From Oscillatoria sp. FACHB-1407 (GTDB lineage: Bacteria > Cyanobacteriota > Cyanobacteriia > Elainellales > Elainellaceae), in assembly GCF_014697545.1 (NCBI RefSeq), contig NZ_JACJSA010000029.1:1-64000 (forward strand): DNA of 64,000 nt, given 5' to 3'. The position numbers and the translations under genes are program-made. Each line of letters begins with the position of its first letter. Within the stretch, counting starts at the first letter, position 1. The notes beneath the pieces were generated by a model, which ran no database searches, had not been told where the DNA came from, and saw nothing but the letters and a program-made list of their open reading frames with translations. This document shows, piece by piece, positions 32,255 through 63,913 of the stretch.

Positions 32255-33022
32255 ATGTGGAACCTGCTAGTGGTAAAAGTTATCGCACTGTTTAATCAAG
32301 CGGGAGGGGTTGCCAAGACCAGTTTGACGATGAATGTGGGCTATCAGTTAGCTCAGAGAAATCGTCGAGTGCTGCTGGCCGACATGGACCCTCAAGCCTC
32401 CTTGACTACTTTTATGGGGTTGGACGTATACAACCTATCTCGCACTATTTATAATGCTGTGGTTTTGAGCGAAGCGATGCCAATCCATAAGGGCATACAC
32501 GGAATGGATCTGGCTCCAGCTAATTTGAGGCTTAGTGCAGCCGAATTGGAATTAGTTGTGGCAGATATGCGCGATCTTCGCTTAAAGGAAGCTCTAGCTC
32601 CATTTCTAGATTCCTACGATTTCATCCTGATCGACTGCCCCCCTAGCCTTGGTATTCTCAGCTACCTGAGCCTTGTTGCCGCTACTCATACATTGATTCC
32701 TATTCAAACGCACTACAAAGCATTGGTTGGAACCGATCTATTGCTGGATACAATTTCTCGTGTGCGTGCTCGTGCTAACAAATCCTTGAAGATCGCTGGG
32801 ATCGTTCCTACAATGCATGAGGCACAAACAGTTCAAGCTAAGATGAGCCTCCAAACAATCGACGATCAGCTATCTCAAGTGGGTAGGATCTATCCTCCGA
32901 TTCCTCGCTCGATTGCGTTTGCTGACGCATCCCAGGAACACCTTCCACTTGCCCTTTTTGCACCGAAGCATCCTGCGATCGCAATTCTAGATACTATTGC
33001 CCAAGGTTTAGAGGAATTGTAA
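32255..33022 (+). CDS. parA: ParA-family partition ATPase
   Basis: A 255-residue Walker-type ATPase. The deviant P-loop reads NQAGGVAKTSLT near 13-24, where canonical ParA has KGGxGKT: the signature first Lys is missing and Ala replaces the Gly before the catalytic Lys. Walker A' is VLLADMDPQASLTTF near 40 and Walker B FILIDCPPSLG near 125. It moves ParB-bound DNA copies during segregation. The start could instead be the GTG at 32270. It overlaps parB by one base (TAATG). The gene pair identifies this block as plasmid-derived or integrative-element DNA. Confidence 0.9.
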   Translation: MWNLLVVKVIALFNQAGGVAKTSLTMNVGYQLAQRNRRVLLADMDPQASLTTFMGLDVYNLSRTIYNAVVLSEAMPIHKGIHGMDLAPANLRLSAAELELVVADMRDLRLKEALAPFLDSYDFILIDCPPSLGILSYLSLVAATHTLIPIQTHYKALVGTDLLLDTISRVRARANKSLKIAGIVPTMHEAQTVQAKMSLQTIDDQLSQVGRIYPPIPRSIAFADASQEHLPLALFAPKHPAIAILDTIAQGLEEL

Positions 33023-33945
33023 TGGCGACGAGAAAGCGAACAGCACAACCTTACCAGATGCGAAACGTAGGTGGCTTGCTAGAGGAACTGGGCGATGAAC
33101 CTTCTACTGAGATGCCTGTTGATAAAATTCGCCTACCTAAGGATCAGCCTCGCAAGTACTTTGACCCCGCCAAGATGCGTGAACTGGTGGAGTCAGTCCG
33201 TGAGTATGGCATTCTTGAGCCTCTGCTGGTGCGCCCGTTAGCAGATGGAGAATACGAGCTTGTTGCTGGGGAGAGACGATACAGAGCCGCAAAAGAGGTG
33301 GGGCTGGATACAATTCCCATCGTCAGCCGAGATCTCAATGACCAGGATGCCATCCGCATTGCTCTTGTAGAAAATCTTCAACGGGAAGACCTTAACCCTG
33401 TGGAAGAAACAGAGGCTATTCTAAATCTCCTCACTGTCGAGTTGAACCTCAGCAAGGAGGACGTAACTTCTCTACTGAACCAGGTTGCTAATGCGAAAAA
33501 ACGAGGGCAGGAGTTGACGGGAAACGTTTCACGTCAAATTGAGCAAGTTGGTGAAGTGCTCTCTAGCATTGCTGATATAACGCCTGAAACCTTTCGTACA
33601 ACTCGCCTTCCGCTGTTAAACCTGCCTCCTGACATTCTCGATTCCCTTCGGCAAGGGCAGATCGAGTATACGAAAGCGAAGGCGATCGCCAAAATTAAAA
33701 ATCCTGAACAGCGGAAGGCACTCTTAAAGCGGGCAATTGATGAAGGACTTTCTCTTACACAGATTCGGGCTGAGATTACTGCAGCAGGACAACCCAATGA
33801 CAGCAATCAGCCTCCTACCTTAAGAGATGACTTCGACAGAATATATGGAAAGTTGAAGAAGTCTGATGTTTGGAATGACAGCAAAAAACAAAATCGTCTC
33901 AAAAAGCTGATGACGGAAATTGAATCCTTGCTAGAAGGAAAATAG
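33022..33945 (+). CDS. parB: ParB-family centromere-binding protein
   Basis: A 307-residue partition protein. The N-terminal CTPase/ParB domain (about 28-125) shows PRKYFDPAKMRELVESVREYG, LVAGERRYRAAKE and ENLQREDLNPVEE (the first is split across 34-54). An HTH region with LSKEDVTSLL follows (about 140-200), then an RQGQIEYTKAKAIAKI helix pair. It is translated together with parA. The cognate parS site was not identified; the gap upstream of parA (32143-32254) is the first place to look. Confidence 0.92.
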   Translation: MATRKRTAQPYQMRNVGGLLEELGDEPSTEMPVDKIRLPKDQPRKYFDPAKMRELVESVREYGILEPLLVRPLADGEYELVAGERRYRAAKEVGLDTIPIVSRDLNDQDAIRIALVENLQREDLNPVEETEAILNLLTVELNLSKEDVTSLLNQVANAKKRGQELTGNVSRQIEQVGEVLSSIADITPETFRTTRLPLLNLPPDILDSLRQGQIEYTKAKAIAKIKNPEQRKALLKRAIDEGLSLTQIRAEITAAGQPNDSNQPPTLRDDFDRIYGKLKKSDVWNDSKKQNRLKKLMTEIESLLEGK

Positions 33946-41875: not shown

Positions 41876-42166
41876 TGCCCAAATCCCTTGCAAAAGCCCT
41901 ACTCAATCAAGCAGCCAGAAGCGGGTCGCTTCATCCGAGATCTGCGTCAATTGACCGGATTGACGCAGGAGCAGTTTGGGCTGCGGGTTGGGGTGTCTTA
42001 TGAAACTGTAAGCCGATGGGAGAACGGAAGGATGCAGCCTTCCTCTCTAGCGTTCAGGCAGCTTCAGCAGTTAGCCCAGGAGTTTGGAGACACGGGTAAA
42101 GCTTTGTTAGAACGGTATACATCTGATCCCCTATCTCCAGGAGCGCCGTCGTATGGTTCGACTTGA
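41858..42166 (+). CDS. XRE-family regulator (controller of downstream restriction-like module)
   Basis: A 102-residue Cro/cI-type protein. The HTH is at about 24-62 (LRQLTGLTQEQFGLRVGVSY, ETVSRWENGRMQP). It overlaps the helicase gene by 14 bases, so it is the first gene of the module. Such genes in this position usually act as C-proteins controlling modification and attack genes. A palindrome lies across its start codons. It is similar in plan to the XRE protein at 2630-2872. Two adjacent ATG codons (41858, 41861) are both possible starts. Confidence 0.85.
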   Translation: MMYVIFCPNPLQKPYSIKQPEAGRFIRDLRQLTGLTQEQFGLRVGVSYETVSRWENGRMQPSSLAFRQLQQLAQEFGDTGKALLERYTSDPLSPGAPSYGST

Positions 42167-45743: not shown

Positions 45744-45780
45744 GGATACAGAGCATCTGTAAAGCAAAAGGAGGGTTGGC

Positions 45781-46194
45781 ATGGTCGATCGCCAGTTGAA
45801 TGAGCACGATATCCTGGTCTGCTGTGCGCTCCGGTTCGATGGATACGGTTATCAGAGCGATCACTCCTCTTTTGTGCCGCACAAGGCTGTGTCCGATTTT
45901 CTGGACACAGGACGATGGCAAGCATCTGATCTGGAATTATTGGCAAGTTTCTTCTTTCTGCAACGATCGTTATGCAAATGGGATTTGGTCTATGAGCCAA
46001 TCGATGGCAAGTACTGGCAGTCGTTTCGATCGCTCTTTTTGCAGGTCAATGGTGCTGAGATTCCTCAGACCTACCAGCAACAGGAGTATTGCCAGCAGTG
46101 GAATAGAGGATTTCTTCCCCATCGAGATGAATGTGTAAGGCTTATCCGATCCGTGTATGAGAGGAACCAATCTACTAGAAACGCTGCCCTGTAA
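45781..46194 (+). CDS. Small hypothetical protein of the helicase-methyltransferase module
   Basis: A 137-residue soluble protein with many aromatic residues (RFDGYGYQSDHSSFVPHKAV, then LASFFFLQRSLCKWDL). AAAGGAGGG lies about seven bases before the ATG. It sits between the helicase (37 bases) and the methyltransferase (31 bases), on the same strand. DUF3780 proteins occupy this place in some related modules, but this one is shorter and I do not recognise the match. Role unknown. Confidence 0.6.
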   Translation: MVDRQLNEHDILVCCALRFDGYGYQSDHSSFVPHKAVSDFLDTGRWQASDLELLASFFFLQRSLCKWDLVYEPIDGKYWQSFRSLFLQVNGAEIPQTYQQQEYCQQWNRGFLPHRDECVRLIRSVYERNQSTRNAAL

Positions 46195-46225
46195 TTTTTA
46201 ATCCGCTACTTTATCGACAACCGTA

Positions 46226-49147: not shown

Positions 49148-49165
49148 ACCCTGGAGGTAAACCTG

Positions 49166-49378
49166 ATGCAACTCACTGTAGAACTACCGGATTCACTCGC
49201 AGAGCGGCTCAATGCCTACTTACAAGAACATCCTGAAGAAACGGTATTGAGTCTGATTCAAGAGGCGTTAGAGGTGAAGTTGATTCCGAAAGATAGCTCA
49301 GGACTCTTGGCGCTTGCCGGAATTGTTACCGAAGCTCCCCATAACGCCCGCGATCGAGCAGAGGACTACGAAAATTGA
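49166..49378 (+). CDS. VapB-like antitoxin
   Basis: A 70-residue protein, MQLTVELPDSLAERLNAYLQ (about 1-20), resembling an RHH-type antitoxin N-terminus, with an acidic tail ending DRAEDYEN. GGAGG precedes the ATG. Its stop overlaps the start of the PIN-toxin gene. The pair sits between the methyltransferase and the DUF499 gene and may be an insertion into the module. Confidence 0.7.
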   Translation: MQLTVELPDSLAERLNAYLQEHPEETVLSLIQEALEVKLIPKDSSGLLALAGIVTEAPHNARDRAEDYEN

Positions 49379-49781
49379 AACAGCTTGTGATTGATGCGGG
49401 TCCCTTAATTGGCTTGTTTTATGCCAAAGACACTGACCATGCTCAGTGTGTTGCTGGCTTTACTCAGCTAATTCAAGCCAAAACGGTTTTGTTGACCCCC
49501 ATCCCGATCGTTTTCGAGGTTTACAAGTGGCTGCTACAGAGAACTAGCCCACAACAAGCCCAGAAAACACTTCAGGTCATGCAGGATAGCCTACACCTCA
49601 TTCCTCTAGATTTGATACGCTACAAACCTTTGTGCTTGCCCTTCCACAATGGCAGGGAAGCTTGGAAGATGCCACGGTCATCACAACTGCATTACGCTAC
49701 CGCTCTCCCGTTTGGACATTGAACTACAGAGATTTTGGCACGTTCAAAACTCTAGAGTTTTGGACTCCTGATTCTAACTAA
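49375..49781 (+). pseudogene. PIN-domain (VapC-like) toxin, frameshifted
   Basis: The first 80 residues read as a PIN nuclease: VIDAGPLIGLFYAKDTDHAQ (first active-site Asp) and PIPIVFEVYKWLL (Glu). Near 49611-49613 the frame is lost. If one T is restored in the TTT run, the protein continues FDTLQTFVLALPQW, SLEDATVITTALR (the third acidic site) and WTLNYRDFGTFKTLEF, ending at 49781 with normal PIN length. As read, it ends at 49722 with an unrelated tail and lacks the C-terminal active site. It may be inactive, or there may be a base-call error in the T run. Confidence 0.75.
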
Positions 49782-49799
49782 CCCTCACACCTTGTACTT

Positions 49800-52700
49800 A
49801 TGTCTATCAGCAACCATGAACGAGTTGGTCGAGCTTTAAATCTCCTTAAAGAAGGTCTGTATTCCTACATTGAGCGCGAGATGAAAGCTGTTTATAGAGA
49901 TAAATGGTTGCTGGCATCTGTCCCCCACATCGATCCAGACAATACCCTCCGCCGCAAGCCCGAAGACATTCTCAAAGAAGATGTCATGGCTCAACTCAAG
50001 CTGATGTGGGGCAAATGGGATGAGGTTTTCAAGCAAACATTGGGTCAGGCAGAGCGTACCCTCATTAGCGAACTTCGCAACACCCGTAACGCTTGGGCGC
50101 ATGGCTCCACTTCTGTCTCCACCGAAGATGCCTACCGCGCCTTAGATAGCATTGTCCGCCTTCTCAATGCAGTTGGGGCAGCCGAACAATCCGATGTTGT
50201 AGAAAAACAACGCTATGAGTTAATGCGGCAACGCTTTGAAGAACAAGCTCGCCGGGAAACTCGCCGTGCTGCCGTTGCCCCAATGGAAGGAACCCCAACC
50301 GGAGGACTCAAGCCTTGGCGCGAGGTAGTGATGCCCCACCAGGACGTTGCTTCTGGGCGGTATCAACAAGCAGAATTCGCCGCTGACCTGTGGCAAGTGT
50401 TCCTAGACGAAGGATCAGACGAATACCGCGACCCCACCGAATTCTTCCGGCGTACCTACCTCACCGAAGGACTCAAGCAGCTTCTTACTGGGGCGTTACT
50501 GCGTTTGAGCGGCGACAAAGGCGATCCAGTCATCGAACTTCAGACTAACTTCGGTGGTGGCAAAACCCACGCCATGCTTGCCCTCTATCATCTGTTCTTT
50601 GGCGTTTCTGCCAACCAACTACCGGGACTGGAGCCTGTCTTTGAAGCGGCAAAAGTCCCCGAACCTCCCCAGGATGTCAAAACAGTGGTGCTGGTCGGCA
50701 ATAAAATCTCCCCTGGGCAAACCCACACCAAAAAGGACGGCACGGTTGTTCGGACGCTCTGGGGTGAGATTGCATGGCAACTTGGCGGTAAAGAAGGCTA
50801 CGAGATGGTGCGTCAAGCCGATGAAACCTCGACCAACCCCGGTGATACCCTCAAGCTGCTGTTCAACAAGTATTCCCCCTGCCTGATCCTGATTGATGAA
50901 TGGGTGTCCTATGCCCGTCAGCTTCACTTCGAGAATGACCTGCCAGCAGGCAGCTTCGATACCCACTTCACCTTTGCCCAAACTCTCAGCGAGTCTGCCA
51001 AAAACGCCGATCGCACCTTACTGGTCGTCAGTATCCCCTCCTCTGATATCGAAATTGGAGGCGATCGCGGTCAAGATGCCTTAGATCGGCTCAAGAATGC
51101 GATCGGTCGAGTCGAGTCTCCCTGGCGACCCGCCAGTGCAGAAGAAAGCTTTGAGATTGTCCGTCGCAGATTATTCCAGCCGATTGACTCTAACTCCTAC
51201 GTTGCCCGTGACGCGGTGATCCGCGCCTTCTACGAGATGTACCAATCCCAGGCAGCAGAGTTTCCGTCTGAATGCCGTGAAGCCAGCTACAAACGCCGTC
51301 TGGAAGAAGCCTATCCAATCCACCCGGAATTATTCGATCGTCTCTACTCTGACTGGTCAACCCTCGACAAATTCCAGCGGACTCGTGGCGTATTGCGGCT
51401 GATGGCAAAAGTCATCCATTCCCTCTGGGATCGAGGAGACAAGAACCTGCTGATTATGCCAGCCAGCGTCTCAATGGATGACGCGCAGGTACAGTCAGAA
51501 CTGACCCGCTACCTGGATGACAACTGGGTGCCCGTGATTGAAAAAGATGTTGATGGCACGAACTCTCTGCCTGTCTCCCTCGACAACCAGAACCCAAACC
51601 TGGGACGTTACTCCGCCTGCCGCCGCGTCACCCGCACCATCTATCTTGGCTCTGCTCCCACGCTACGGGCAGCTAACCGGGGCTTACAGGATCGCCGCAT
51701 TAAACTCGGTTGTGTGCAACCGGGAGAATCCGTCGCTACTTTTGGTGATGCCCTACGACGACTCACCGATCAGGCAAGCTACATCTACATTGATGGCGAT
51801 CGCTACTGGATCTCAACCCAACCGAACGTCACCCGCATGGCGCAAGACCGGGCAACCCAGATCGAGGAAGACCCAGAGAAAATTTGGGAAGAAATTATCC
51901 GTCGCCTGAAGCTAGATAAACAGCGGGGAGAATTCGCTGGGGTGCATATCGCCCCAGACTCAACCGCAGACATTCCCGATGACGAATCAATGGGAGTGCG
52001 CTTGGTCGTTGTGGGACCGCAACATCCCCACATCAGCAAATCAAGCGATAGCCCTGCCCGCCAGCAGTGCGATCAGATTCTCACCACTAAAGGAGCCAGC
52101 CCCCGCTACTGCAAAAATCTCCTGCTGTTTCTGGTTCCCGATAAGTCCAAACTGGCACTACTAGAGCAAAACGTTTGTCAGTTCCTCGCGTGGGATTCGA
52201 TCATGCGAGACAAGGAACTACTGAACCTTGACCCATTCCAGGGCAAGCAGGCAAACACGAAACGGGAGCAGACCAATGACCTGGTAGACAACCTCTTGAA
52301 AGAAGCCTACCAATGGATGCTCGTCCCCACTCACCGAGCTAATGCCAGCGATCCCAAACAACAGACCGATTGGACAGAAGTACGGCTCCAAGGGCAAGAT
52401 TCCCCAGTGCTTCGAGCTAGCCGTAAGGCAGTCCATGAGGAATACCTGATTGTCACCTACGCCGCAAATCGCATTCGGATGGAGGCTCTCGATCCTTACC
52501 TATGGCGAGATTCTGACCATATCGATACAAAACGCTTGTGGTCATATCTGAGCAATTATCTATACCTCCCCCGTCTTAGTAACGAGCAGGTCTTACTGCA
52601 AGCGGTTCAACAAGGTGTAACAGCCCTCCTCTGGTCTGAAAACTTTGCCTACGCCACTGGCTGGGACGAAGCCAAAGGACGATATTTAGGACTAAAAGCC

Positions 52701-53153
52701 GGACCCAACGATCCCTTTACCGCGACCCTCAGTAGCCAGAATTTGCTCGTCAAACCAGAGGTCGCCCAACGACAACTGGATGCAGACGAAGCAGCTAGAA
52801 AACAGGCAGAAGATGAGAAGAAGAACCAGCCCGGTTCCGATCCGGGTGTAGACGGGAAGGGCGATCGCACCGATCCTTCTGGAGGTGGTATACCCCCTGT
52901 TATCCCCCCTCCCACCAAGCAAGTGAACCGCTTTTACGGAGCAGTCAAGGTCAACCCTACCCGATTAATCAAGGATGTAGGGCAGATTGCCGACGAAGTA
53001 TTACAGCACCTCAGCAGCCTCAATGCTGATATTGAAGTGACTGTAGAAATCCAGGTTAAAACCCCTGACGGCGTTCCAGATGCGGTCATTCGCACTATCA
53101 CTGAAAACTGCCGCACCCTCAAATTCACTAGTTACGAGTTTGAGGAGGACTAG
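49800..53153 (+). CDS. DUF499 ATPase with N-terminal Swt1-like HEPN domain
   Basis: A 1,117-residue protein. The N-terminal 130 residues match the Swt1-type HEPN domain: HERVGRALNLLKEGLYSYIE and the ELRNTRNAWAHG signature near 91-102. The AAA-like ATPase of DUF499 has Walker A NFGGGKTHAMLALYHLF near 250 and Walker B CLILIDEWVSY near 361. The C-terminus has a Gly/Pro linker (about 1010-1045) and a small beta domain. DUF499 proteins accompany DUF1156 methyltransferases and SNF2 helicases in predicted defence islands. It probably acts as the NTP-dependent attack or sensing subunit. Starts 18 bases after the repaired end of the PIN gene. Confidence 0.9.
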   Translation: MSISNHERVGRALNLLKEGLYSYIEREMKAVYRDKWLLASVPHIDPDNTLRRKPEDILKEDVMAQLKLMWGKWDEVFKQTLGQAERTLISELRNTRNAWAHGSTSVSTEDAYRALDSIVRLLNAVGAAEQSDVVEKQRYELMRQRFEEQARRETRRAAVAPMEGTPTGGLKPWREVVMPHQDVASGRYQQAEFAADLWQVFLDEGSDEYRDPTEFFRRTYLTEGLKQLLTGALLRLSGDKGDPVIELQTNFGGGKTHAMLALYHLFFGVSANQLPGLEPVFEAAKVPEPPQDVKTVVLVGNKISPGQTHTKKDGTVVRTLWGEIAWQLGGKEGYEMVRQADETSTNPGDTLKLLFNKYSPCLILIDEWVSYARQLHFENDLPAGSFDTHFTFAQTLSESAKNADRTLLVVSIPSSDIEIGGDRGQDALDRLKNAIGRVESPWRPASAEESFEIVRRRLFQPIDSNSYVARDAVIRAFYEMYQSQAAEFPSECREASYKRRLEEAYPIHPELFDRLYSDWSTLDKFQRTRGVLRLMAKVIHSLWDRGDKNLLIMPASVSMDDAQVQSELTRYLDDNWVPVIEKDVDGTNSLPVSLDNQNPNLGRYSACRRVTRTIYLGSAPTLRAANRGLQDRRIKLGCVQPGESVATFGDALRRLTDQASYIYIDGDRYWISTQPNVTRMAQDRATQIEEDPEKIWEEIIRRLKLDKQRGEFAGVHIAPDSTADIPDDESMGVRLVVVGPQHPHISKSSDSPARQQCDQILTTKGASPRYCKNLLLFLVPDKSKLALLEQNVCQFLAWDSIMRDKELLNLDPFQGKQANTKREQTNDLVDNLLKEAYQWMLVPTHRANASDPKQQTDWTEVRLQGQDSPVLRASRKAVHEEYLIVTYAANRIRMEALDPYLWRDSDHIDTKRLWSYLSNYLYLPRLSNEQVLLQAVQQGVTALLWSENFAYATGWDEAKGRYLGLKAGPNDPFTATLSSQNLLVKPEVAQRQLDADEAARKQAEDEKKNQPGSDPGVDGKGDRTDPSGGGIPPVIPPPTKQVNRFYGAVKVNPTRLIKDVGQIADEVLQHLSSLNADIEVTVEIQVKTPDGVPDAVIRTITENCRTLKFTSYEFEED

Positions 53154-53229: not shown

Positions 53230-54882
53230 ATGCCGAGAGTGGACTTTGGGAAAGGTTGGTCAAGACCCTATCGATTTACTGGTGGTAAGGACAACCCCGA
53301 TGTCATTAGTCGTTGGGGTTGCAAAGACAAGTCAGGAATTTATCTGATTTCTGATGAAAGTGATTATGAAATCCTCTATGTAGGCAAAGCTGTCTCCATT
53401 GATACTCGCCTACAAGATCACATGGAGGCTAAGGGATACGGCAATGCTCGAATTGCTGCGGATGTTGCTAGTGGCAAAACCTTTACTTTGCGCTGGATAA
53501 CGTCTAGAGATCCAGAACTTTCAGAGTCGATTGCCATTGTCGTTTTGACTCCCAGATACAACGGCAGATGTGAATGGAAGAGGGGGGTTGATAAGGTTGA
53601 TCTATTTTCATGTTTACAGGAAGCTGAGCGGATTGGGCTAGTTGAATCTAAGGAAAAAGTAGAAGAAAACTTAATTATTAATCTCTGCAATGCCTTGGAG
53701 ATTAGGATTGCTGAGATCCGTCAGAAGAAAAGTGCGCTTTGTAGTCAAGCTGAGGCTTTGAGCAACTCAACGAATTGGAAAGATGACGAAGAACGCCTGA
53801 AGAAGATGCAGGCTGAATGGAAAAAATTAGGGTTTGCGGGAAAATTTTTTGATGACGTAGCCTGGGGGCGCTTTAAACAAGCAATCGATACATTTTACGA
53901 ACGCCGTAGAACTTATTTTGCCCGTAGAAAAAGTGAACTCTGTAGCCAAGCTGAGGCATTGAATAAATCAGATAAGTGGAAAGAAGCTGAGGAGGGTTTG
54001 AAGCAGTTACAGTTTGAGTGGAAGCAGCTAGGATCTGCGGGAAAAGAATTTGACGAGGCGATTTGGATCCGCTTTAAGAACGCCATTGATACGTTTTACC
54101 AACGCCGTAAAGCTTATTTTGCTCAGAAGGAGCGTGAGTATGAGGAAAATAAACGTAAGAAGGAGCAACTTTGCCGAGAAGCAGAATCCCTAACCTACTC
54201 TACTGACTGGAAAAAAGCTGGAGATACATTTAAGGCTTTAAGCGATCGCTGGAAATCAACAGGTTCCGCTGGTCGGGATCATGAGGAGAAACTTTGGCAG
54301 CGATTCAAGTCAGCCAGAGACAAGTTTAATGAACGGAGAAGCGAATATTTTAATCATCAAGAACGGGAGCAACTTGAAAATTTAGACCGTAAGCTCAGAA
54401 TATGTGCAGAGGCTGAAAATCTCTCTTCTATCGGTGCAAGGATAGCAGGAGATATTCGAGACTCTGTTCAGCGCATAAAACAACTTCAAGCTGATTGGAA
54501 AACCATTGGTTATGTTCCTCGCGATCGACGGGAAGAGGTACAAACTCGCTTCCGTCAGGCTTGTGACAAAGTTTTTGAATGGGATCGTCAAGAGCGAGAG
54601 CGCAAACAAGCAGAGTGGCGCGAGAAGATGAAGGAAACCATCGCGAATAAAAAGGAACAGGCAAACCGTATTCGCGATTCCATTCAACATGATGAGCGGG
54701 TTATCGATGAGAAGCGGGACAAGATTTACAACTTACGTCCCGGTGGCAGAGCCTCTGAGATTAGAGAACATCTAGAGGAACAAATCCGAAGTATTCAGAA
54801 CAAAATTGATTCTAAGTGGGAGAAGGTAAACACATTGGAGGCTGCAATTCGAGATATGGAAATTAAGATCTATGGGTTCTGA
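53230..54882 (+). CDS. GIY-YIG nuclease fused to DUF349 repeats
   Basis: A 550-residue protein. The N-terminal GIY-YIG domain (about 33-115) has the active-site series intact: SGIYLI, ILYVGKA, Arg in TRLQDH, Glu in LSESIA and Asn in RYNGR. From about 150 to 480 there are three clear DUF349-type repeats, each of the form WKKLGFAGKFFDDVAWGRFK then DTFYERR, plus a partial fourth; a coiled coil ends the protein. GIY-YIG enzymes nick or cut DNA; DUF349 is a helical domain of unclear role. It lies 77 bases after the DUF499 gene on the same strand, ending the module, so a nuclease-effector role is suggested. The fusion looks unusual. Confidence 0.8.
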   Translation: MPRVDFGKGWSRPYRFTGGKDNPDVISRWGCKDKSGIYLISDESDYEILYVGKAVSIDTRLQDHMEAKGYGNARIAADVASGKTFTLRWITSRDPELSESIAIVVLTPRYNGRCEWKRGVDKVDLFSCLQEAERIGLVESKEKVEENLIINLCNALEIRIAEIRQKKSALCSQAEALSNSTNWKDDEERLKKMQAEWKKLGFAGKFFDDVAWGRFKQAIDTFYERRRTYFARRKSELCSQAEALNKSDKWKEAEEGLKQLQFEWKQLGSAGKEFDEAIWIRFKNAIDTFYQRRKAYFAQKEREYEENKRKKEQLCREAESLTYSTDWKKAGDTFKALSDRWKSTGSAGRDHEEKLWQRFKSARDKFNERRSEYFNHQEREQLENLDRKLRICAEAENLSSIGARIAGDIRDSVQRIKQLQADWKTIGYVPRDRREEVQTRFRQACDKVFEWDRQERERKQAEWREKMKETIANKKEQANRIRDSIQHDERVIDEKRDKIYNLRPGGRASEIREHLEEQIRSIQNKIDSKWEKVNTLEAAIRDMEIKIYGF

Positions 54883-54886
54883 CAAG

Positions 54887-54910
54887 GGGTTATCCATCAT
54901 GGATTAACCC
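54887..54910. terminator. Shared hairpin between convergent genes
   Basis: GGGTTATCCAT pairs with ATGGATTAACCC (one bulged A) around a single C. It lies between the convergent ends of the GIY-YIG gene and the ParE gene and can end transcription from both sides. Confidence 0.65.
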
Positions 54911-55200
54911 TGCCCGAAAATCACTTCAATATCCCGTGAGCCACGTAAAACACGGATTACATCGATCCCACCCTCGATCTCTCGGTAGAACACGACATAG
55001 TTGCCGATCGGAAAGCTTTGTAATCCCGGCAATAATTCATCCCGTCTCCTCCCCAACCCTGGATTACGCGCTAGCAGGTGCAGTTTTTCTTCAATCCGAT
55101 CTAAAAACTCATCTGCCCGATCCATACTGTCGTCTGCAATATAATCCCAGATGTCCAGCAGGTCTAGTTCTGCAAGAGGACGTTTAACAACGATCGCCAT
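54904..55200 (-). CDS. ParE/RelE-family toxin
   Basis: A 98-residue toxin of the ParE type: LAELDLLDIWDYIADDS near 9-25, NPGLGRRRDELLPGLQSFP near 46-64, YVVFYREIEGGIDVIRVLRG near 68-87. ParE proteins block gyrase; RelE relatives cut mRNA. It is translated with the ParD gene upstream (TAATG overlap). All usual segments are present and the length is normal. It sits between the helicase-methyltransferase module and the pPIWI-RE module and probably stabilises the island. Confidence 0.9.
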   Translation of the reverse strand: MAIVVKRPLAELDLLDIWDYIADDSMDRADEFLDRIEEKLHLLARNPGLGRRRDELLPGLQSFPIGNYVVFYREIEGGIDVIRVLRGSRDIEVIFGQG

Positions 55201-55457
55201 TACTGCGGTTGCCTCTGACGACGGCGCTGCCGCGCTTTCTCTTTAACCTCCGGCATGTTTAAAAGGGTTGGCTCCCCACTATCCAAACCCGCCTGAATGT
55301 CCTGGCGTAACTCCTGCAACCGGAGTTGCTGAAGCTGCTCCCGCTCCTTCAGCAGGCGCAACCCCTCGCGGATTACTTCACTGGCAGAGTAATAGAGACC
55401 GCTGGAGACTTTCTCCTGGACAAACTGCTCTAGCTCCGGTGTTAAAGACACATTCAC
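55200..55457 (-). CDS. ParD-like RHH antitoxin
   Basis: An 85-residue protein: NVSLTPELEQFVQEKVSSG (strand and first helix) and YSASEVIREGLRLLKERE (second helix) form the ParD RHH fold; the C-terminal half is a charged helix that binds the toxin. AGGAGG is seen in the minus-strand leader about six bases before the ATG. It is the first gene of the toxin-antitoxin pair. Confidence 0.92.
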   Translation of the reverse strand: MNVSLTPELEQFVQEKVSSGLYYSASEVIREGLRLLKEREQLQQLRLQELRQDIQAGLDSGEPTLLNMPEVKEKARQRRRQRQPQ

Positions 55458-55865: not shown

Positions 55866-55895
55866 TTCTGTCGATTTAGACGCAAATCGACAGAA
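55866..55895. repeat. Left hairpin flanking the pPIWI-RE module
   Basis: Perfect 12-bp arms TTCTGTCGATTT/AAATCGACAGAA with loop AGACGC. The arms share TTCTGTCGA with the hairpin at 63038-63071 on the other side of the module. Possible operator, terminator or element end. Confidence 0.75.
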
Positions 55896-56034: not shown

Positions 56035-57168
56035 GTGGTGAAGCTAGATATACCCGCTCTTGAACAAATTTCTGCTGGGCTAATTCAAGTTGCTCAACGA
56101 CGAGGACAGCTTTACCCGTATCCTCAGAACCTGCAATTGGGGTACGACAAAGTGGTTCTAAGTTTCCTTCTAGGTGAGGAACCAGAGCGGGCACCGTCTA
56201 GTCTCCCAGACTTTTATCAGCAATGGTGTGAAAAGCCTTTCAGCGAGTGGAACGTAGAAGTTGATGCTGAAATTGACGTGGAAAACACACTACTGTTTTT
56301 TGGAGAACCAACCGAGATCACAATTGAGCTAGCAGAAGCATTTGGCGGGAGTGTATTTTCTCAGGAGCAGTCTAGGGTTGCATCCACCTTGCTCCAGCGT
56401 TGTCAGTCTCACTCCCAGGGAGTGCAACTCTACACCAAATTCCGAAGATTCATCATTGAGCATCCTGTTCTCACTGAGCAAGAGTTTGTGGAGGCAAAAG
56501 GGTTATTTGGACTTGGAGTGGGACTAGCTGATTTATTAGAGGAGTGTTATGAGCTAGCGCCTAGTTGTCACCAATGGCAAGGAAATTTCTATGCTTGCCC
56601 ATACTGTCATGCTTTGACATCTGTAGCTTATGAGCAGGTTATTGCGAATCCAGATTGTAACCGATGTCCATCTGGGCGCAGGTTAAAACGAAAAGTCAAG
56701 CTGGACCCATCTATTTTGAAGCTTAGGCGGGGAATTGAACGTTTCTGGTTCTACCCAGGACGGGCAGAAGTTCGGCTCTACGAGAGATTTGTAGAGTTGG
56801 GTCTTGAAGTTGAGCTTTACCCATCTTGTGATTGCTATGACCTACGGGTCACATTTCCAGATGGTGAGGTTTGGGCGATCGATCTAAAAGATTATTCAAA
56901 TCCCTATTTATTAGTGAAGCGTTTGGGTGACGAACCAATTCCTTCCAACCCAACTTGGGATCTTGGCTATATTGTCATTCCTAATGAGCGGAAGCGTGAC
57001 CGTCCCGCCTATCTCAAAGAGCTGAAGTCCCGATGGCGGTGGCAGAATATCAAGCCGATGTTTGACGACGCTGTTTTTGCTTTAGCAAAGAAGAAGCTTA
57101 GTCCCCAAACTGCAGAATCGCCTCAAATATCCGACCGGGAGAGGAAGGTGAAGCATGAGAGAAACTAG
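56035..57168 (+). CDS. REase component of pPIWI-RE system
   Basis: A 377-residue predicted restriction-type nuclease; GTG start with GAGGT eight bases upstream. Residues about 182-225 hold a zinc ribbon (CPYC ... CNRCPSG). The C-terminal half has a PD-(D/E)XK core: CDCYDLRVTFPDGEVWAIDL and then KDYSNPYLL (Asp near 263; Asp-Leu-Lys near 279). A PIWI-RE operon is reported in the literature to encode exactly a REase, a DinG-like helicase and a pPIWI-RE protein; this is the first gene of such a set and overlaps the helicase gene by 14 bases. Role: DNA cleavage partner, inferred from the family. Confidence 0.8.
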   Translation: MVKLDIPALEQISAGLIQVAQRRGQLYPYPQNLQLGYDKVVLSFLLGEEPERAPSSLPDFYQQWCEKPFSEWNVEVDAEIDVENTLLFFGEPTEITIELAEAFGGSVFSQEQSRVASTLLQRCQSHSQGVQLYTKFRRFIIEHPVLTEQEFVEAKGLFGLGVGLADLLEECYELAPSCHQWQGNFYACPYCHALTSVAYEQVIANPDCNRCPSGRRLKRKVKLDPSILKLRRGIERFWFYPGRAEVRLYERFVELGLEVELYPSCDCYDLRVTFPDGEVWAIDLKDYSNPYLLVKRLGDEPIPSNPTWDLGYIVIPNERKRDRPAYLKELKSRWRWQNIKPMFDDAVFALAKKKLSPQTAESPQISDRERKVKHERN

Positions 57169-60100
57169 AAGTTGGAGAGTGTCAGCTGCACAAACATTAC
57201 GTAAGTCCAATTTACCGAAGGATCAAATTGAGGCGCTACTGGATGTGGAGCTTTGCTTATTTGCGGTTGAGAGATTGGGAGTACAGAATGATCTGGATAC
57301 AGCAACTTCTGCATGGCTGCTGATTTCTAGTCGGTTCTATTTATTCCCCAAGTTAAACTTATTATTGGATACCACCGAAGCAAAACGAACTCTATTTAAC
57401 TTAAGACAGCTGCTTCCTTACATTACGAACGAGGACATCGCGGAGCAGTTGGTACGGGTTTACCGACAAATTCCGTCAAAGTTTCGAGCTTATGAACTCG
57501 ATGATGCCTATCGATTCTCCAGGAAACCAATGCCCTCTATTTGGGGTAATCGGTTTGAGCGCTTTGAGGATCTATTAGGCAATAAGTTGAAATATCGCAG
57601 CCGGGTAGTTAAGTATGCTGATCCTGGACAGGAATACCGATTCAAGTTTGAGGAGAACACCTATAGCGTCAAAATCCCGCAAGAATTGCCTGTGCGTCAA
57701 GGCAACGTGATATCACTACATCGGGAAAATGTTAAGCCTATCTCTGTAACTCGAAGGGAGATGCAGGACTCTGCACAGCTTCTGGATAAATGCTGCGGTA
57801 GCAACTACGTTGACCGATTGAACAATATCATCGTCGAGAACTTTCAGGGGATGGGATTTGCATCAACGGATGAGCTTGTGTTTGACGGTGTTAAACACAT
57901 GGTTGGACTCCTTAATGCAGGTAAATCAACCTTGATGGAAATCCTGACGGTTGCGGTAGTACAAAAAGGACATCGGGTTGGTATTGTCCTGAGTGAGGTT
58001 GTAACTTGTCTCAGAATGGCAAGTTTGCTTAAAAAAGTTGGGTTACGAGTTTCCGTTGTGATGGGACAGCGAAACCGTAAATTGCACCTGGAAAATTGGC
58101 ATAGTGTGGATGGAGGGTTAGATGGCTTTGAACATCTATCTACAGCCTGCCCACTAAGCCAGTACTTTCAACCTTCTGTACCCTCCTCACCCCCATGCTT
58201 TAACCTCAAGAAGATTGAGGAAGGGGAAGGTGATGACAAGGATGAAGAGGGAGAACGGATTTGTCCTTTAATTGGACAATGTCCCAGACACCGAGACGTC
58301 AATCAGCTTGCAAATGCCGATGTCATCCTAACGACAACAGCTGCTGCTATATTTACGCGACCACTGCCTCATGTTAGCCCGCAGTCGATTACCTGTTATG
58401 AATTGATGTATCGCACGTGCAATGTGGTTTTCTTCGATGAGTGTGATAAAACTCAGGCTAATTTAGATTCAACATTTCTTCCAGCTATCAAGTTGATTGC
58501 CCGTGGAAGTAATGGATTCCTCGATCAGGTTGTAACTTGGACTCGATCTCAAAAGCTTCGCAATTCTAGGAGTGATCTGCGGCAGATTGTTTTTGGACAA
58601 TTCAATCATGCGTTGCAAAATGCTGATGCGCTGGTCGATAATATCTGCACTCAGTTACAAGTTTCACCTAATGAAAGTGAGTGGTTAGCAGAAAAGTTTT
58701 TTACCTGCTCATTCTTAGCAAGGAGTTTTGTTTTAGAGATTGCCAAAGCCGAAGGAATTGATACAGATTCAAATACCTTTATCCTGGACAAGAATTCTGT
58801 TTATCAGGAGTTAGCCGAGTTTCTGTTAGGAGACTGGAAAAGCTCTTGGTTAGCTGAGTATGCGATGCGGTTGGCAAATGAGAATTGGCAAGAACAACAG
58901 GCAACGATCGCAAGTATTGAGAAAGAACTCACGCAGAGGGGCTGGCTAAAAGCAGTTGAGGATAGGTGGGGTTTCAGTTGTCGATTTGCTTTATTTCTAA
59001 AGCTTGTACTTTTTGTTTCATTCTTTCAACAGTCCGTAAAAACCGCTTATGGACTGACAGAACAGACAGATGGTGCTGATGAAATTGTGTTCTTTAATCG
59101 AATTCCTCGTGATTTTTATGGGTTAACTCCAGGGTTGGCGTCAGGTTTAGTATGTGGATTTAAGCTTGAACAACAACAGGATCAGCTAACACTCTGGTAT
59201 TTTCAGGCTCTTGGGCAGGGACGTTGGTTGTTGGAAAACTTTTCTCAAGTATTTGCTAACGAAGGAACTCAAGGTGCTCATGCTCTGTTATTAAGCGGAA
59301 CGAGCTGGGCAGGGGAGAGTCCCATTTACAATGTTGATCTACCAGTTGACTACCTGTTACGTCCTAAAGAGCATCAAGCTACAGAAGCAGTCTCACAAAG
59401 CAATTTCTATTTCTCTCCATGCTACTGGCCTGATGGAAAGTCAGTGCGCGTTTCTGGAGTTAAAGATAAAGAAGATTCTTTACTGCAAGTCGTACGATCT
59501 CTGATGCGACAAACAGATATTTTACAGCGAGATTTTGATGCTCTGCCAGCAGGTCGCCAACGGCTAATTTGGTATGTCAACAGTTATGAACAGGTTGAAT
59601 TCGTTCATAATGCCATACTGACGCTTGATACGAGTCGAGATTGGAGCCATCGTGTTGCAGCTTTGACTGCTCGATCACCTTTGGAAGACGTGGATGAATC
59701 GTTGATCGCTCGTGGCAATATTGAGAATTTTGCCAACACGAATCGAGCCATTTTGATTGCACCGATTGCAGCGATCGGGAGAGGCAAGAATATTTTGAAC
59801 GATCAAGGATTGAGTGCCTTTGGGGGTGCCTACTTTTTAGTACGCCCTCATCCGGCTTCGGATGACCTTGATTATAAATTCCGCTTGGCACTTTGTGAGG
59901 AAAGAAAAGCAATCTTGGAAGAACGTGAAAAAGGTCTACGAGATGCGTGTGAATCTTGGCGCAGTGAGGGCTACAGCATCTTTCTAAAGAATCTCGACAC
60001 AGTTCTACAGTATTCTAATCGGGGGATGCCCAAAGAGGTTAGGGAAGGACTGATTTGGACCCAAATGGTGCTTACTTGGCAAGCGATCGCCCGCACCATT

Positions 60101-60328
60101 CGTGGAAATCAACCGACCCTGATTCGGTTTATTGATGCTGCTTGGGCACCTAATCTTGCATTGGGTAAGCCTGAAACGGCTCAAGAGTCGTTATTGAAAG
60201 GCTTTGAATACGTCCTTCGCCCCTATTTATCAAAGACTAAGACTAGCTATAACGCTCGTGATTTAGCGTTAGTTCGGTCACTTTACGATCCCTTCTATCG
60301 CGCTTTGGAGAAAATTGATGGCTTATAA
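57155..60328 (+). CDS. DinG-like Fe-S helicase of pPIWI-RE system
   Basis: A 1,057-residue superfamily-2 helicase. Walker A GLLNAGKSTLMEIL is near 250 and the DEAH-like box VVFFDECDKTQ near 425. Between them lie four cysteines (about 331, 348, 370, 376; ACPLS, PPCF, RICPLIGQCPR) that fit the Fe-S cluster of XPD/DinG helicases. The C-terminal helicase half has IWYVNSYEQVEF near 807 and IGRGKNILNDQG near 870. AGGAAGG precedes the ATG. It should unwind DNA, or DNA/RNA duplexes, in the defence complex. It overlaps the next gene by 11 bases. All expected motifs are intact. Confidence 0.85.
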   Translation: MRETRSWRVSAAQTLRKSNLPKDQIEALLDVELCLFAVERLGVQNDLDTATSAWLLISSRFYLFPKLNLLLDTTEAKRTLFNLRQLLPYITNEDIAEQLVRVYRQIPSKFRAYELDDAYRFSRKPMPSIWGNRFERFEDLLGNKLKYRSRVVKYADPGQEYRFKFEENTYSVKIPQELPVRQGNVISLHRENVKPISVTRREMQDSAQLLDKCCGSNYVDRLNNIIVENFQGMGFASTDELVFDGVKHMVGLLNAGKSTLMEILTVAVVQKGHRVGIVLSEVVTCLRMASLLKKVGLRVSVVMGQRNRKLHLENWHSVDGGLDGFEHLSTACPLSQYFQPSVPSSPPCFNLKKIEEGEGDDKDEEGERICPLIGQCPRHRDVNQLANADVILTTTAAAIFTRPLPHVSPQSITCYELMYRTCNVVFFDECDKTQANLDSTFLPAIKLIARGSNGFLDQVVTWTRSQKLRNSRSDLRQIVFGQFNHALQNADALVDNICTQLQVSPNESEWLAEKFFTCSFLARSFVLEIAKAEGIDTDSNTFILDKNSVYQELAEFLLGDWKSSWLAEYAMRLANENWQEQQATIASIEKELTQRGWLKAVEDRWGFSCRFALFLKLVLFVSFFQQSVKTAYGLTEQTDGADEIVFFNRIPRDFYGLTPGLASGLVCGFKLEQQQDQLTLWYFQALGQGRWLLENFSQVFANEGTQGAHALLLSGTSWAGESPIYNVDLPVDYLLRPKEHQATEAVSQSNFYFSPCYWPDGKSVRVSGVKDKEDSLLQVVRSLMRQTDILQRDFDALPAGRQRLIWYVNSYEQVEFVHNAILTLDTSRDWSHRVAALTARSPLEDVDESLIARGNIENFANTNRAILIAPIAAIGRGKNILNDQGLSAFGGAYFLVRPHPASDDLDYKFRLALCEERKAILEEREKGLRDACESWRSEGYSIFLKNLDTVLQYSNRGMPKEVREGLIWTQMVLTWQAIARTIRGNQPTLIRFIDAAWAPNLALGKPETAQESLLKGFEYVLRPYLSKTKTSYNARDLALVRSLYDPFYRALEKIDGL

Positions 60329-62969
60329 ACACATTCAATTGATGGCTCTAACAGTACCAAATCAGTTGATATTACCATTCAATTTATATGCTCTTACAGT
60401 TCCTCAGCAATGGAAGGAGCTATTTACTCGACTGCAAAGACATAAGTTGGGAAAGAATTATGTTCTACCTCCTGTTGAGTCATTGAATCCTGTTATTCAA
60501 CTGTTGTTTGAGGATATCCTTTTCTTTCAAAAAGGGGCATTTAAACTGGGCTGCAGCGTAAAGTGGCTTTATTGTAAAACCGATCAGATCCCTACTCAAA
60601 GAATCGCTGAAGTAATCAAAACATGGCTTAGGATTTCGTTTGAAAATTCCGACTTCCTGACGGATGAAGACGTTACGCAGATTCAGGCGATTTCTGGTGA
60701 TGATCTCCGGTTTGAGCGAGTTTCTATACCGGATCCAATCTGGAGGATTGTAGACGGTAAGTTAGAAATTGATAATCTGTTTTATAGTTTGTTTCCCTAT
60801 CTTTGTTCTTCTGCTGTTGCATCCGGTTCATTTTCTTTGATTAATCCCTCGACTGGAAATGTTTCTGAGGAAGTTATCTTCTACCCAAGTGCTTTAGAGG
60901 GAGAGCGAATTGATGAAGCAATTAGCTGGCCTCCTATTCCAGTTAAACGCCCTCGTAAAAGGAAGGGTAGCAATCAACAGGAAGAAGTTGTTCACTACTA
61001 CTCATATTGTCTGAAATTTGCGTTGCACTATGATGCAGGTGGTTTTCCTTATCTAATTTGTGATGCTGGTATTAGGCGCTGGGTGAGTTGGCGATTGGGT
61101 TATCTTCCTTCTGCGACTAGTGTTTGTATTAAGCCTGTAGGTGCAACTCAATTTGCCGCTTGTAAGCTCCGGTATGCAGGCAAGGAAAGGGGGATTGAGT
61201 TTGAGAATAATTTAATTCGTCTTTTGCAAGAACTTAAGTATCGAGATCGCTTCGCTGTGGAAGATGTAATTGCAAGCCCTTACAAAAACAGTGAGCTTGT
61301 ATGGGCGACTGTTTATAACAATCAGATGTCAACTTCTCACAATGTGAATCCTGGGTTCTTTCCCGTTGACATTGTGATGTTTCAACAAGCTTGCATCGAG
61401 CGATTTCAGCAAATTTTAGGGACAGAATTCTCCCTCTTAGAGCCGTATTCTCGGTGTTCTAATGATAAGTCCTTAAGGCAGGTAAGCTCTGCTTACAGTG
61501 AAGTCGAGAAATTTGTAAAATCTCACTTTGCCACAGTTGTAACTGCACCTCCATTCTATATTCCGCCTGATTTAAGGTTAGTTTTACTAGCACAGAGCCA
61601 AGAGGCAAAAGATTTAATTGTTCCCTTGGCTAAGAAGTATGGAATTACAGATGTGGAAATCTATGATTTGGGTGTTTTAGGAGCAGAATTACCTGGGACC
61701 TCTTGGAAAAATGAGTGTAGTGATAGAATCCGCAAGTTCCAACAATCTCTTCATGCTTCTTCTCCAAATCAGAAAACACTTACCCTAATTGAGATTCTGC
61801 CTAAGGAGATGTTTTGGCAGGATTCGAAAAAAGATCCAAAACCTTGCTTTCGTCCTGCCTTAGCCATGTTAGGTAGTGTTACCGACCACTTTGAGCCGAA
61901 AGCAGAAGATGACACTGAAGATTTCCTGAATCTAGAAACGTTGAGTACAGAAATAACTCGTCGTGAAAACAAGGCAGCTGATGAGTCAGAAGATAAATTT
62001 TTCAAAGCTCCGTCCCTCAAGAGCAATTTTGCTCATCGGGTCGAGAATACTCTTCTGACTGGTTTATCAATGGCAGGTGCTTATGTATATCCGAGTTTTG
62101 CTGCTGAAGATTTTCCAACTCATGTTGCAAGTGTAGGAGTTTATTTAATTCCGTTCTACTGCAGTGAAAGAACGGAATACCTTCCTGTTGCAGTATGTAT
62201 GAGTGAGAGTGGAGTGACAGCTAAAGCCTATGGATGCAACGATTGGCTCGACTTTCATTCCTTCCAAATTCAAATGTGTACAGGCAAGATGTTTCAGCCT
62301 ATCAAGTTGGACAAAAGTGCTATTCAGGCATGGGTGTTTAACAACTTATTTCAGGAAACGAAACAGCCAACCCTATTCTGCTTTGATGTAGCGAATTTAC
62401 ATACAAAAGGATTAAGCTTCCTGCAGAAGAAACAGTGGCAAAAGCACAGCCTTGCATTTGATGTGGGTCGGGAGTCAACACACGTTTCCCTGCGGAAGTA
62501 CCCTTATGTTCGAATTGCATCAATCATTACTCCCTACACTTCACAAGTACCTCTATATCGAGCACTTAACAAGCGAGGTGAACTAGCTGGTCATACAGAA
62601 GGAGTGTTTTATCCTCCTTCGCAGGGAGATGAGTGTGGACATTATTACCTCAGCAATCAACGCCCCGATTCACGAAGTGGTGGCATCTTGCAGGAAAGCA
62701 AGCTGTTACCAATGGTTAAAACGAAAGGGAAAAATGTTGGACAGCCTAAGAAGCCAAAACCTCATGCTCAAGGGTACAACCCTCGTGGCATATTCCTGAA
62801 TCTGACATTACAGGAGAACGATCGCTTTAGTGATTGGGCAAGTTTTGTTCAATGTTTACGGCTTTATGGGTTAATACACTACCTAGATGCCACAATTCTT
62901 CCTGCCCCTTTACATTTGGCTGCTGGACTCGATAATTATCGACCCATACATGCTCTTGGGAAACTATAA
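60318..62969 (+). CDS. pPIWI-RE protein (prokaryotic PIWI with R-E signature)
   Basis: An 883-residue protein from the ATG at 60318 (GGAG seven bases upstream); a TTG one codon earlier is possible. The N-terminal part (about 1-400) corresponds to the pPIWI-RE X-type module. About 415-560 is a MID-like fold (LVLLAQSQEAKDLIVPLAKK). About 570-880 is the RNase H-like PIWI part, with GVYLIPFY, LFCFDVANLHT, YPYVRIASIITP, GHTEGVFYPPS and a C-terminal LDATILPAPLHLAAGLDNYR. The Arg in YVRIASI and the Glu in TEGVFY are candidates for the signature pair. pPIWI-RE proteins are thought to bind guide or RNA-DNA duplexes. Domain boundaries are approximate; the call rests on motifs plus operon layout. Confidence 0.8.
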   Translation: MAYKHIQLMALTVPNQLILPFNLYALTVPQQWKELFTRLQRHKLGKNYVLPPVESLNPVIQLLFEDILFFQKGAFKLGCSVKWLYCKTDQIPTQRIAEVIKTWLRISFENSDFLTDEDVTQIQAISGDDLRFERVSIPDPIWRIVDGKLEIDNLFYSLFPYLCSSAVASGSFSLINPSTGNVSEEVIFYPSALEGERIDEAISWPPIPVKRPRKRKGSNQQEEVVHYYSYCLKFALHYDAGGFPYLICDAGIRRWVSWRLGYLPSATSVCIKPVGATQFAACKLRYAGKERGIEFENNLIRLLQELKYRDRFAVEDVIASPYKNSELVWATVYNNQMSTSHNVNPGFFPVDIVMFQQACIERFQQILGTEFSLLEPYSRCSNDKSLRQVSSAYSEVEKFVKSHFATVVTAPPFYIPPDLRLVLLAQSQEAKDLIVPLAKKYGITDVEIYDLGVLGAELPGTSWKNECSDRIRKFQQSLHASSPNQKTLTLIEILPKEMFWQDSKKDPKPCFRPALAMLGSVTDHFEPKAEDDTEDFLNLETLSTEITRRENKAADESEDKFFKAPSLKSNFAHRVENTLLTGLSMAGAYVYPSFAAEDFPTHVASVGVYLIPFYCSERTEYLPVAVCMSESGVTAKAYGCNDWLDFHSFQIQMCTGKMFQPIKLDKSAIQAWVFNNLFQETKQPTLFCFDVANLHTKGLSFLQKKQWQKHSLAFDVGRESTHVSLRKYPYVRIASIITPYTSQVPLYRALNKRGELAGHTEGVFYPPSQGDECGHYYLSNQRPDSRSGGILQESKLLPMVKTKGKNVGQPKKPKPHAQGYNPRGIFLNLTLQENDRFSDWASFVQCLRLYGLIHYLDATILPAPLHLAAGLDNYRPIHALGKL

Positions 62970-63037: not shown

Positions 63038-63071
63038 ACTTCTGTCGAAGCAACTTTTAATCGACAGAAGT
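63038..63071. repeat. Right hairpin flanking the pPIWI-RE module
   Basis: Perfect 11-bp arms ACTTCTGTCGA/TCGACAGAAGT with a 12-base loop, 69 bases after the pPIWI-RE stop. It could end transcription of the operon (no clear U-run) or mark an element boundary together with the left hairpin. Confidence 0.75.
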
Positions 63072-63232: not shown

Positions 63233-63913
63233 GTGAAAATCAACCGCCACGATCAAGCCAAGATCTTGCCAGCGCAAGAGATCGCTTGGCTGTTTGACGG
63301 AAAACTGGGGTTGGTTTCAAATCTGAAGCTATTTCGGCTGCTGGTTTGTTTTAGGGGAGTGAAAGGGATAGAGGCGATCGCCTCCCTGTCGTTGCTCTCT
63401 TATATAGAGGGGTTGCCGACTGAGCGAGATCGGGCGTTGTTTGGGATTTGTCTGTACACGACTGCGCGGGTCAATGAGGCATGTTCGCTGCATACCGCTG
63501 ATGTGTATGGGACGGATGGGCGGGTGCGCGATCGCATTACCTTTCGGCGGGCAACAACCAAAGGGAAACAGGAGACGCGATCCGTTCCGGTGTCGCCAGA
63601 GTTAAGGAAATTGCTGGAAGGGTATCGGAGCGATCGTCCCTACCTCTTTCCAGGACGCTGGGGGCGAGGGCATATTTGCCCAGAGTCTGCCGATGCCATT
63701 TTACGGGCAGCCTTTAAGCGGTTGGGGATTGAGGGAGCCAGCACCCACAGCTTTCGTCGCACGGCAATCACTTGGATGCACAACGAACGAGTACCGATTA
63801 AGCATATTCAGTCGATCTCTGGACACAAGAGCCTGTCGGCGTTGCAGCGGTATATCGATGTGACGGAGAAAGACAAGGAAATGGCGATCGCGACACTCAG
63901 TTTTCGATCCTAA
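63233..63913 (+). CDS. Short tyrosine recombinase (catalytic domain only)
   Basis: A 226-residue integrase from GTG (MKINRHDQAKILPAQEIAWL). It lacks a core-binding domain. The active site is complete: Arg in TTARVNEA near 78, Lys in TTKGKQ near 106, HSFRRTAI near 173, SGHKSL near 197, Tyr in QRYIDV near 206. A stretch of about 30 residues (about 27-58, FRLLVCFRGVKGIEAIASLS) sits between the N-terminal strand and ERDRALFGICLYTT, where short relatives known to me are continuous, so it looks like an in-frame insertion. It may mobilise the island's right end. Confidence 0.85.
   Translation: MKINRHDQAKILPAQEIAWLFDGKLGLVSNLKLFRLLVCFRGVKGIEAIASLSLLSYIEGLPTERDRALFGICLYTTARVNEACSLHTADVYGTDGRVRDRITFRRATTKGKQETRSVPVSPELRKLLEGYRSDRPYLFPGRWGRGHICPESADAILRAAFKRLGIEGASTHSFRRTAITWMHNERVPIKHIQSISGHKSLSALQRYIDVTEKDKEMAIATLSFRS

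Follow-up and report, generated by a model that had tools for sequence, protein, structure and literature searches.

The window analysed here, a stretch of 64,000 nucleotides from a contig of the cyanobacterium Oscillatoria sp. FACHB-1407, carries three genes (positions 56035-62969) that, judged from their sequences, form a complete plasmid-borne pPIWI-RE triad, a known, little-studied system, with an unusual PIWI subunit. In the reading that we favour, with a probability of about 0.6, a guide-loaded, non-cutting PIWI protein would recruit a DinG helicase and a restriction endonuclease (REase) against invading DNA. The locus is ordinary in kind; what sets it apart is the state of its PIWI subunit, its co-occurrence with a canonical triad in the same genome, and the palindromes that flank it. 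Such triads have been a prediction since 2013 and we found one biochemical study (PMC10991935), in line with an earlier note on this DNA, which had called the mechanism poorly characterised. Judged by titles and abstracts, only that study and the 2013 prediction (PMC3702460) concern the pPIWI-RE family among the literature matches listed; a paper from 2020 (PMC7641849) deals, in the passages shown, with Piwi-related proteins.

Results

A complete triad with intact nuclease and helicase motifs

The triad consists of three overlapping open reading frames (ORFs) on the plus strand (56035-57168, 57155-60328 and 60315-62969) in the order REase, DinG, PIWI, and both this order and the overlaps are as described for the pPIWI-RE island by Burroughs, Iyer and Aravind in 2013 (PMC3702460). 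The first gene (56035..57168) starts with GTG and encodes PprRE, a protein of 377 aa with domain Y, a zinc ribbon and a PD-(D/E)xK nuclease (PF18156, PF18154). The second (57155..60328) overlaps the first by 14 nt and encodes PprDinG, in which domain Z (PF18155) is joined to a DinG-like superfamily 2 (SF2) helicase (1057 aa). The third (60318..62969) encodes a divergent pPIWI-RE protein of 883 aa with X, MID and PIWI domains (PF13111, PF13032, PF18157). Its start is most likely the ATG at 60318 rather than the ORF edge at 60315, because the annotated Calothrix homologue described below begins at the equivalent Met; the resulting 11-nt overlap with the DinG stop codon is also present in that relative.

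Profile searches, which the earlier note had proposed as a check, matched all three families, and Pfam and PADLOC agree on the complete trio that it had described. The Pfam E-values were 3e-22 for pPIWI_RE_Y and 3.5e-27 for pPIWI_RE_REase on the REase protein, 1.9e-23 for pPIWI_RE_Z on the DinG protein, and 5.5e-24 for pPIWI_RE_X, 6.8e-15 for RNaseH_pPIWI_RE and 3.3e-6 for MID_pPIWI_RE on the PIWI protein; all were above their cut-offs, the MID match marginally so (27.8 bits versus 26.6). PADLOC gave 3.2e-46 for PprRE, 1.3e-143 for PprDinG and 2.4e-61 for PprPIWI.

The catalytic residues of the first two proteins are intact, as previously claimed. In alignments of cyanobacterial triads, REase residues E245, D269, D283 and K285 and the zinc-ribbon cysteines C188, C191 and C208 were invariant in 12/12 rows; the fourth cysteine, C211, lies in a column where another residue is the most frequent, and several other rows have a Cys two residues on. 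Likewise invariant (11/11 rows) were the iron-sulphur (Fe-S) cysteines of DinG (C332, C348, C370 and C376), its Walker A residues G251, G256 and K257, the DE box D428-E429, and Q976, R980 and R983 of motif VI. The locus thus has the nuclease with domain Y, zinc ribbon and intact PD-(D/E)xK core and the DinG-like Fe-S helicase that define the pPIWI-RE system. Among solved structures, the REase profile gave only weak hits, 4 in number (E 0.04-0.12), and these were proteins of other kinds; the 9 hits of the DinG profile at E up to 0.01 each covered a short stretch of reverse gyrase or RecA.

The PIWI protein is predicted to fold like an Argonaute

The PIWI profile retrieved no solved relative by sequence at E up to 1. 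An AlphaFold2 model built on alignment A4 (the window PIWI and 41 relatives) had a mean predicted local distance difference test score of 76.5 and a predicted template modelling score of 0.81. When this model was searched against the PDB with Foldseek, Argonautes came out on top (PliAgo 7r8k, E 1.8e-14), with SPARTA, SPARDA and DdmE lower down among the matches listed; VIA-align superposed it on TtAgo 5xow over 516 residues (Z 19.8, root-mean-square deviation 5.6). By profile and fold, the protein has the X, MID and RNase H-fold PIWI domains of a pPIWI-RE protein, its MID match being marginal, and its predicted fold remains Argonaute-like. The earlier note would have given up its claim if the third protein failed to match PIWI or MID folds in structure prediction; since the model matches Argonautes, that was not the outcome.

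Altered residues in the PIWI protein

The same note had stated that all motifs look intact, and for the PIWI protein this does not hold. In A4, the column of the first catalytic Asp holds Y609, which the AlphaFold2 model puts in the initial beta strand of the RNase H part. At the second column D690 is kept, at the end of a later strand, where 16/41 relatives have Asp and 13/41 have Glu. No row of A4, out of 42, combines Asp at the one column with Asp at the other, and by this placement of the columns the window PIWI lacks the two-Asp catalytic core; the only relatives with Asp at column 609, L050 and L051, lack it at 690. In addition, F826 stands at the family Glu column (Glu in 41/41 relatives), D523 at the MID Gln column (Gln in 38/41) and T581 at a conserved Asp column (Asp in 41/41). 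The 2013 description of the family terms the Glu absolutely conserved and places conserved MID positions along the cleft for the guide 5' end (PMC3702460).

These counts depend on the loci included. A4 and its counterpart A5 comprise 41 of the 72 loci of a wide scan plus the window, and leave out loci that came from other searches, among them the Calothrix plasmid p3 relative, L026, L124 and the second triad of the same genome. A wider alignment of C-terminal parts (77 rows) has Glu in 70 of the 72 rows with a letter at this column, with Asp in L124 and Ser in L026; the window clade is therefore not the sole exception, and A4 shows 41/41 because those two loci were left out of it. The wider set holds 75 PIWI ORFs of 780-1200 aa and two trimmed giant ones; broken or partial ORFs were dropped, and a few rows are the same place fetched twice. 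Giant pPIWI-RE proteins occur on Bradyrhizobium and Microvirga plasmids (L128:5289-14591 and L129:1738-11922, about 3100 and 3394 aa), where the pPIWI-RE part leads into a long tail that matches AAA_22, and another AAA gene adjoins.

Of the RE pair, the Arg is probably represented by R732. Both A4 and A5 (MAFFT) place R732 there, and the wider alignment of C-terminal parts places S735 there instead. In the model of L030 the strand bearing R857 ends at 859, which A5 pairs with window position 734, where the window strand ends. The Glu of the pair is missing (F826), and we therefore file the protein as a divergent homologue rather than a typical member.

In PsPIWI-RE of Pseudomonas stutzeri, cleavage required the two Asp, and the R and E were dispensable (PMC10991935); we infer the match of its residues to window columns. 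On these alignments the window PIWI seems to have lost a cutting residue and a family-defining one, and because of the apparent loss of the catalytic residue, cutting is probably left to the nuclease. The idea that triads have dead PIWI proteins and stand-alone genes active ones is not supported as a rule, since PsPIWI-RE lies behind dinG yet is active; stand-alone genes lay outside our sample. L119/L127, a possible stand-alone candidate, matched at E 7e-4 but fell short of the Pfam cut-off.

The altered MID residue suggests that the guide 5' end is recognised in an atypical way. Losing both the MID Gln and the family Glu would also fit relaxed guide recognition, as in the original 2013 proposal for the triad (PMC3702460), R-loop-directed restriction, whereby PIWI, with no guide loaded, would sense RNA-DNA hybrids on invading DNA under active transcription, DinG would open the R-loop and the REase would cut. 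We regard this account as possible but doubtful: MID residues K508 and R512 are retained in the window PIWI, and PsPIWI-RE cleaves with loaded guides of at least 10 nt (8-31 nt tested; PMC10991935).

One close relative, and purifying selection

The PF13032 family is patchily distributed. It was found in 12 of 386 cyanobacterial genomes (including this one), in 3 of 398 genomes from the phylum of a Brevibacillus (2 above the cut-off, the Brevibacillus at the centre of that set being counted), and in 1 of 188 genomes from the phylum of a Myxococcales metagenome-assembled genome, that one being the central genome itself. At E up to 0.001, the window PIWI itself matched 2 of the 386 cyanobacterial genomes, its own and one distant match (29% over 21-259), and none of the 35 other genomes of the order. 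A search of a collection of 72,556 plasmids returned 3 records, of which only Calothrix sp. PCC 7716 plasmid p3 matched over the full length (50.6%). This plasmid is mobilizable, though the search that found it covered plasmids only, and it carries a triad (AP025021, L101) whose pairwise identity to that of the window is 67.0% for REase, 72.7% for DinG and 52.0% for PIWI. The two form a lone pair in a midpoint-rooted FastTree phylogeny of 87 DinG sequences, read without branch supports.

That there is one close relative rests on the plasmid, 386-genome, order and phage searches, not on the wide scan of 72 loci. The wide scan used a single peptide pattern and is blind to close relatives of the window type, because the pattern excludes the Trp in the DinG motif of the window and Calothrix p3. 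The PIWI had no match in 50,697 phage records, and two protein pattern scans of viral contigs gave 3 and 600 pattern matches, none confirmed. A triad on a Hymenobacter plasmid (L123:8895-11815) has its PIWI matches split across short ORFs.

Compared with Calothrix p3, the nonsynonymous and synonymous differences per site (pN/pS) were 0.21/0.75 for REase, 0.17/0.88 for DinG and 0.32/0.82 for PIWI, with synonymous sites saturated or nearly so; on these figures the triad genes are under purifying selection. The Calothrix PIWI has the same F826 and D523, but keeps Asp at 581. These data bear on whether the locus is a relic with a decaying PIWI subunit, heading for loss, as might be read from the first catalytic column without Asp, the loss of Glu826 and Asp581, and several broken or shortened triads in other cyanobacteria (L022, L025, L028 and L097, on contigs of chromosome size). 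Set against this are the three intact frames with their overlaps preserved, the purifying selection, and the two substitutions common to both plasmids, and we consider decay very improbable.

A canonical triad in the same genome

A second, complete triad lies on contig C13 of the same genome (L003:5183-12239), beyond the DNA on which the earlier note was based, and is canonical, with Q, D, R and E at the family positions. An ORF beside its 3' end looks tyrosine recombinase-like by eye, and the ends of C13 show no closing overlap. Calothrix PCC 7716 also has a canonical triad, on plasmid p2 (L040). The pairing of a canonical with a variant triad is thus seen in two genomes. Having a canonical and a signature-poor triad in one cell allows one to ask which PIWI residues define the choice of guide, and whether any effector other than the REase is at work.

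A plasmid setting near other defence genes

The window contig is 74,858 bp long. Its first and last 40 bases are identical, and this 40-mer has no other occurrence in the 8.13-Mb genome; joining the ends yields a single 1609-codon frame, a sensor kinase by eye. ParA and ParB are encoded at 32255..33945 on the plus strand (Pfam). Because of the unique 40-bp end overlap, the frame across the join and ParAB, the contig is most simply read as a circular plasmid of 74,818 bp. The triad had been placed in a defence island: a defence system is indeed nearby, HmaABC, and the setting is most simply a plasmid, not a chromosomal island.

HmaA, HmaB and HmaC of the Hma system occupy window positions 42153-53153 (PADLOC), ~3 kb upstream of the triad. 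Right after HmaC, at 53230-54882, four DUF349 stretches are fused, unusually, to a weak GIY-YIG nuclease match, and a ParDE toxin-antitoxin pair (54904-55457) adjoins the triad. Farther upstream, a 1592-aa protein (26552-31330) combines trypsin-like, NACHT and many HEAT repeat matches in a build like that of nucleotide-binding leucine-rich repeat proteins. Promoter-like and terminator-like sites showed no excess over shuffles.

Instead of defence, the triad might serve housekeeping or replication support, resolving R-loops or replication ends. Deletion of PsPIWI-RE altered division and ciprofloxacin sensitivity (PMC10991935), which would fit such a role. The patchy distribution of both the family and this PIWI does not, nor do the HmaABC genes and toxin-antitoxin pair nearby, and the triad is without a methylase; we judge this explanation improbable.

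Palindromes bracket the triad

The triad is bracketed by a pair of 30-bp palindromes, neither assigned a strand, which the earlier note does not mention. The left one, TTCTGTCGA-N12-TCGACAGAA (55866..55895), lies 139 bp ahead of the REase start codon; the right one (63040..63069), with the same 9-bp arms and a 12-bp centre, lies 70 bp past the PIWI stop codon. Just beyond it, on the plus strand at 63233..63913, is a tyrosine recombinase of 226 aa (PF00589, 4e-24; phrog_216, 2.2e-39) with a putative link to the triad. The element may therefore reach past 56035-62969, with palindromes on both sides and the recombinase at 63233-63913.

The inner 26 bases have no further exact match in the genome, and the number of palindrome occurrences expected in the window, at up to 3 mismatches, is 0.03. 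The plasmid holds 40 perfect inverted repeats with 9-base arms versus a mean of 4.5 in 20 shuffles. Since such repeats are common on it, only the arm pairing is special: this is the only arm used twice among the 40, and no arm was reused in the 20 shuffles. When 1 mismatch was allowed, the 30-mer was present in 2 of the 386 cyanobacterial genomes, this one and one other, with exact copies only in the window; a backward control occurs in 3 genomes. Of 77 triad loci that have the full set of three ORFs and a 3' flank of 100 bp or more (a few fetched twice), the window is the only one whose flanks share such a pair. Viral contigs contained no exact copy of the palindrome. On contig C15 the inner 26 bp recur with 1 mismatch inside an ORF resembling an AraC-type regulator, which was taken as chance.

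The centres of the two palindromes share 3 of 12 bases in register, which speaks against direct crossover at simple loxP-like sites, and terminators were rejected, there being no T-run past the stems. As RNA, each palindrome could form a hairpin (z -2.8 and -3.9); an RNA role or an operator pair are alternatives to cassette ends. Conserved arms around a variable centre resemble recombinase-bound sites such as pdif, and the palindromes are possibly cassette ends. If so, they would illustrate a route by which such systems pass from plasmid to plasmid.

Discussion

In the mechanism that we propose, the PIWI protein would hold a short guide in its MID pocket and recognise invading DNA without cutting it. 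It would then recruit DinG, which would unwind or move along the DNA, and the PD-(D/E)xK REase would perform the cutting. We favour such a guide-loaded sensor because the REase has the sole complete nuclease site and the PIWI protein has an Argonaute-like predicted fold; the guide type, the target and the formation of a complex are features that we infer. The invariance of the catalytic residues of REase and helicase, against no A4 row with both PIWI Asp, argues for this division of labour.

Several points weigh on the other side. Columns 609 and 690 were placed by secondary structure and by the general layout of the RNase H fold rather than by alignment to an active member. As regards a source of guides, the window contained no Rfam match, and there were no tandem or CRISPR-like repeats near the triad. 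Furthermore, PsPIWI-RE, also encoded after dinG, has nuclease activity of its own, and the phenotype of its knock-out concerned division and ciprofloxacin sensitivity rather than defence (PMC10991935).

A more elaborate version, which we think unlikely, is that the triad is a functional offshoot without the signature Glu, with a reshaped guide-end pocket, a guide unlike that of the canonical triad and cutting by the REase only, forming a cassette that would move between plasmids via the 30-bp palindromes.

Among known systems, the closest in kind is the pPIWI-RE three-gene system itself (PMC3702460), with which the window triad shares gene order, overlaps, the Y-ZnR-REase, Z-DinG and X-MID-PIWI architectures and a patchy distribution, and from which it differs in the changes of Glu to Phe, MID Gln to Asp and Asp581 to Thr. 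It is flanked by a palindrome pair, unlike the other triad loci tested. The Calothrix p3 triad is likewise plasmid-borne, with F826 and D523, but it keeps Asp at 581 and lacks the paired palindromes. PsPIWI-RE also lies behind dinG, as in the window; by the description in the paper (PMC10991935), rather than by sequence comparison, it is active, with two Asp and both R and E present. In mode of action the window triad would resemble DdmDE (reported) and ApsAB (proposed), which combine an Argonaute-like protein with an SF2 helicase and a PD-(D/E)xK nuclease (PMC12409362, PMC11096173). As those papers describe them, DdmD and ApsA fuse helicase and nuclease, whereas the window encodes these as two separate proteins, and its DinG-like helicase with Fe-S cysteines is set apart from theirs. 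The module may be a three-subunit analogue of DdmDE/ApsAB with which its plasmid would keep out rival plasmids or phages.

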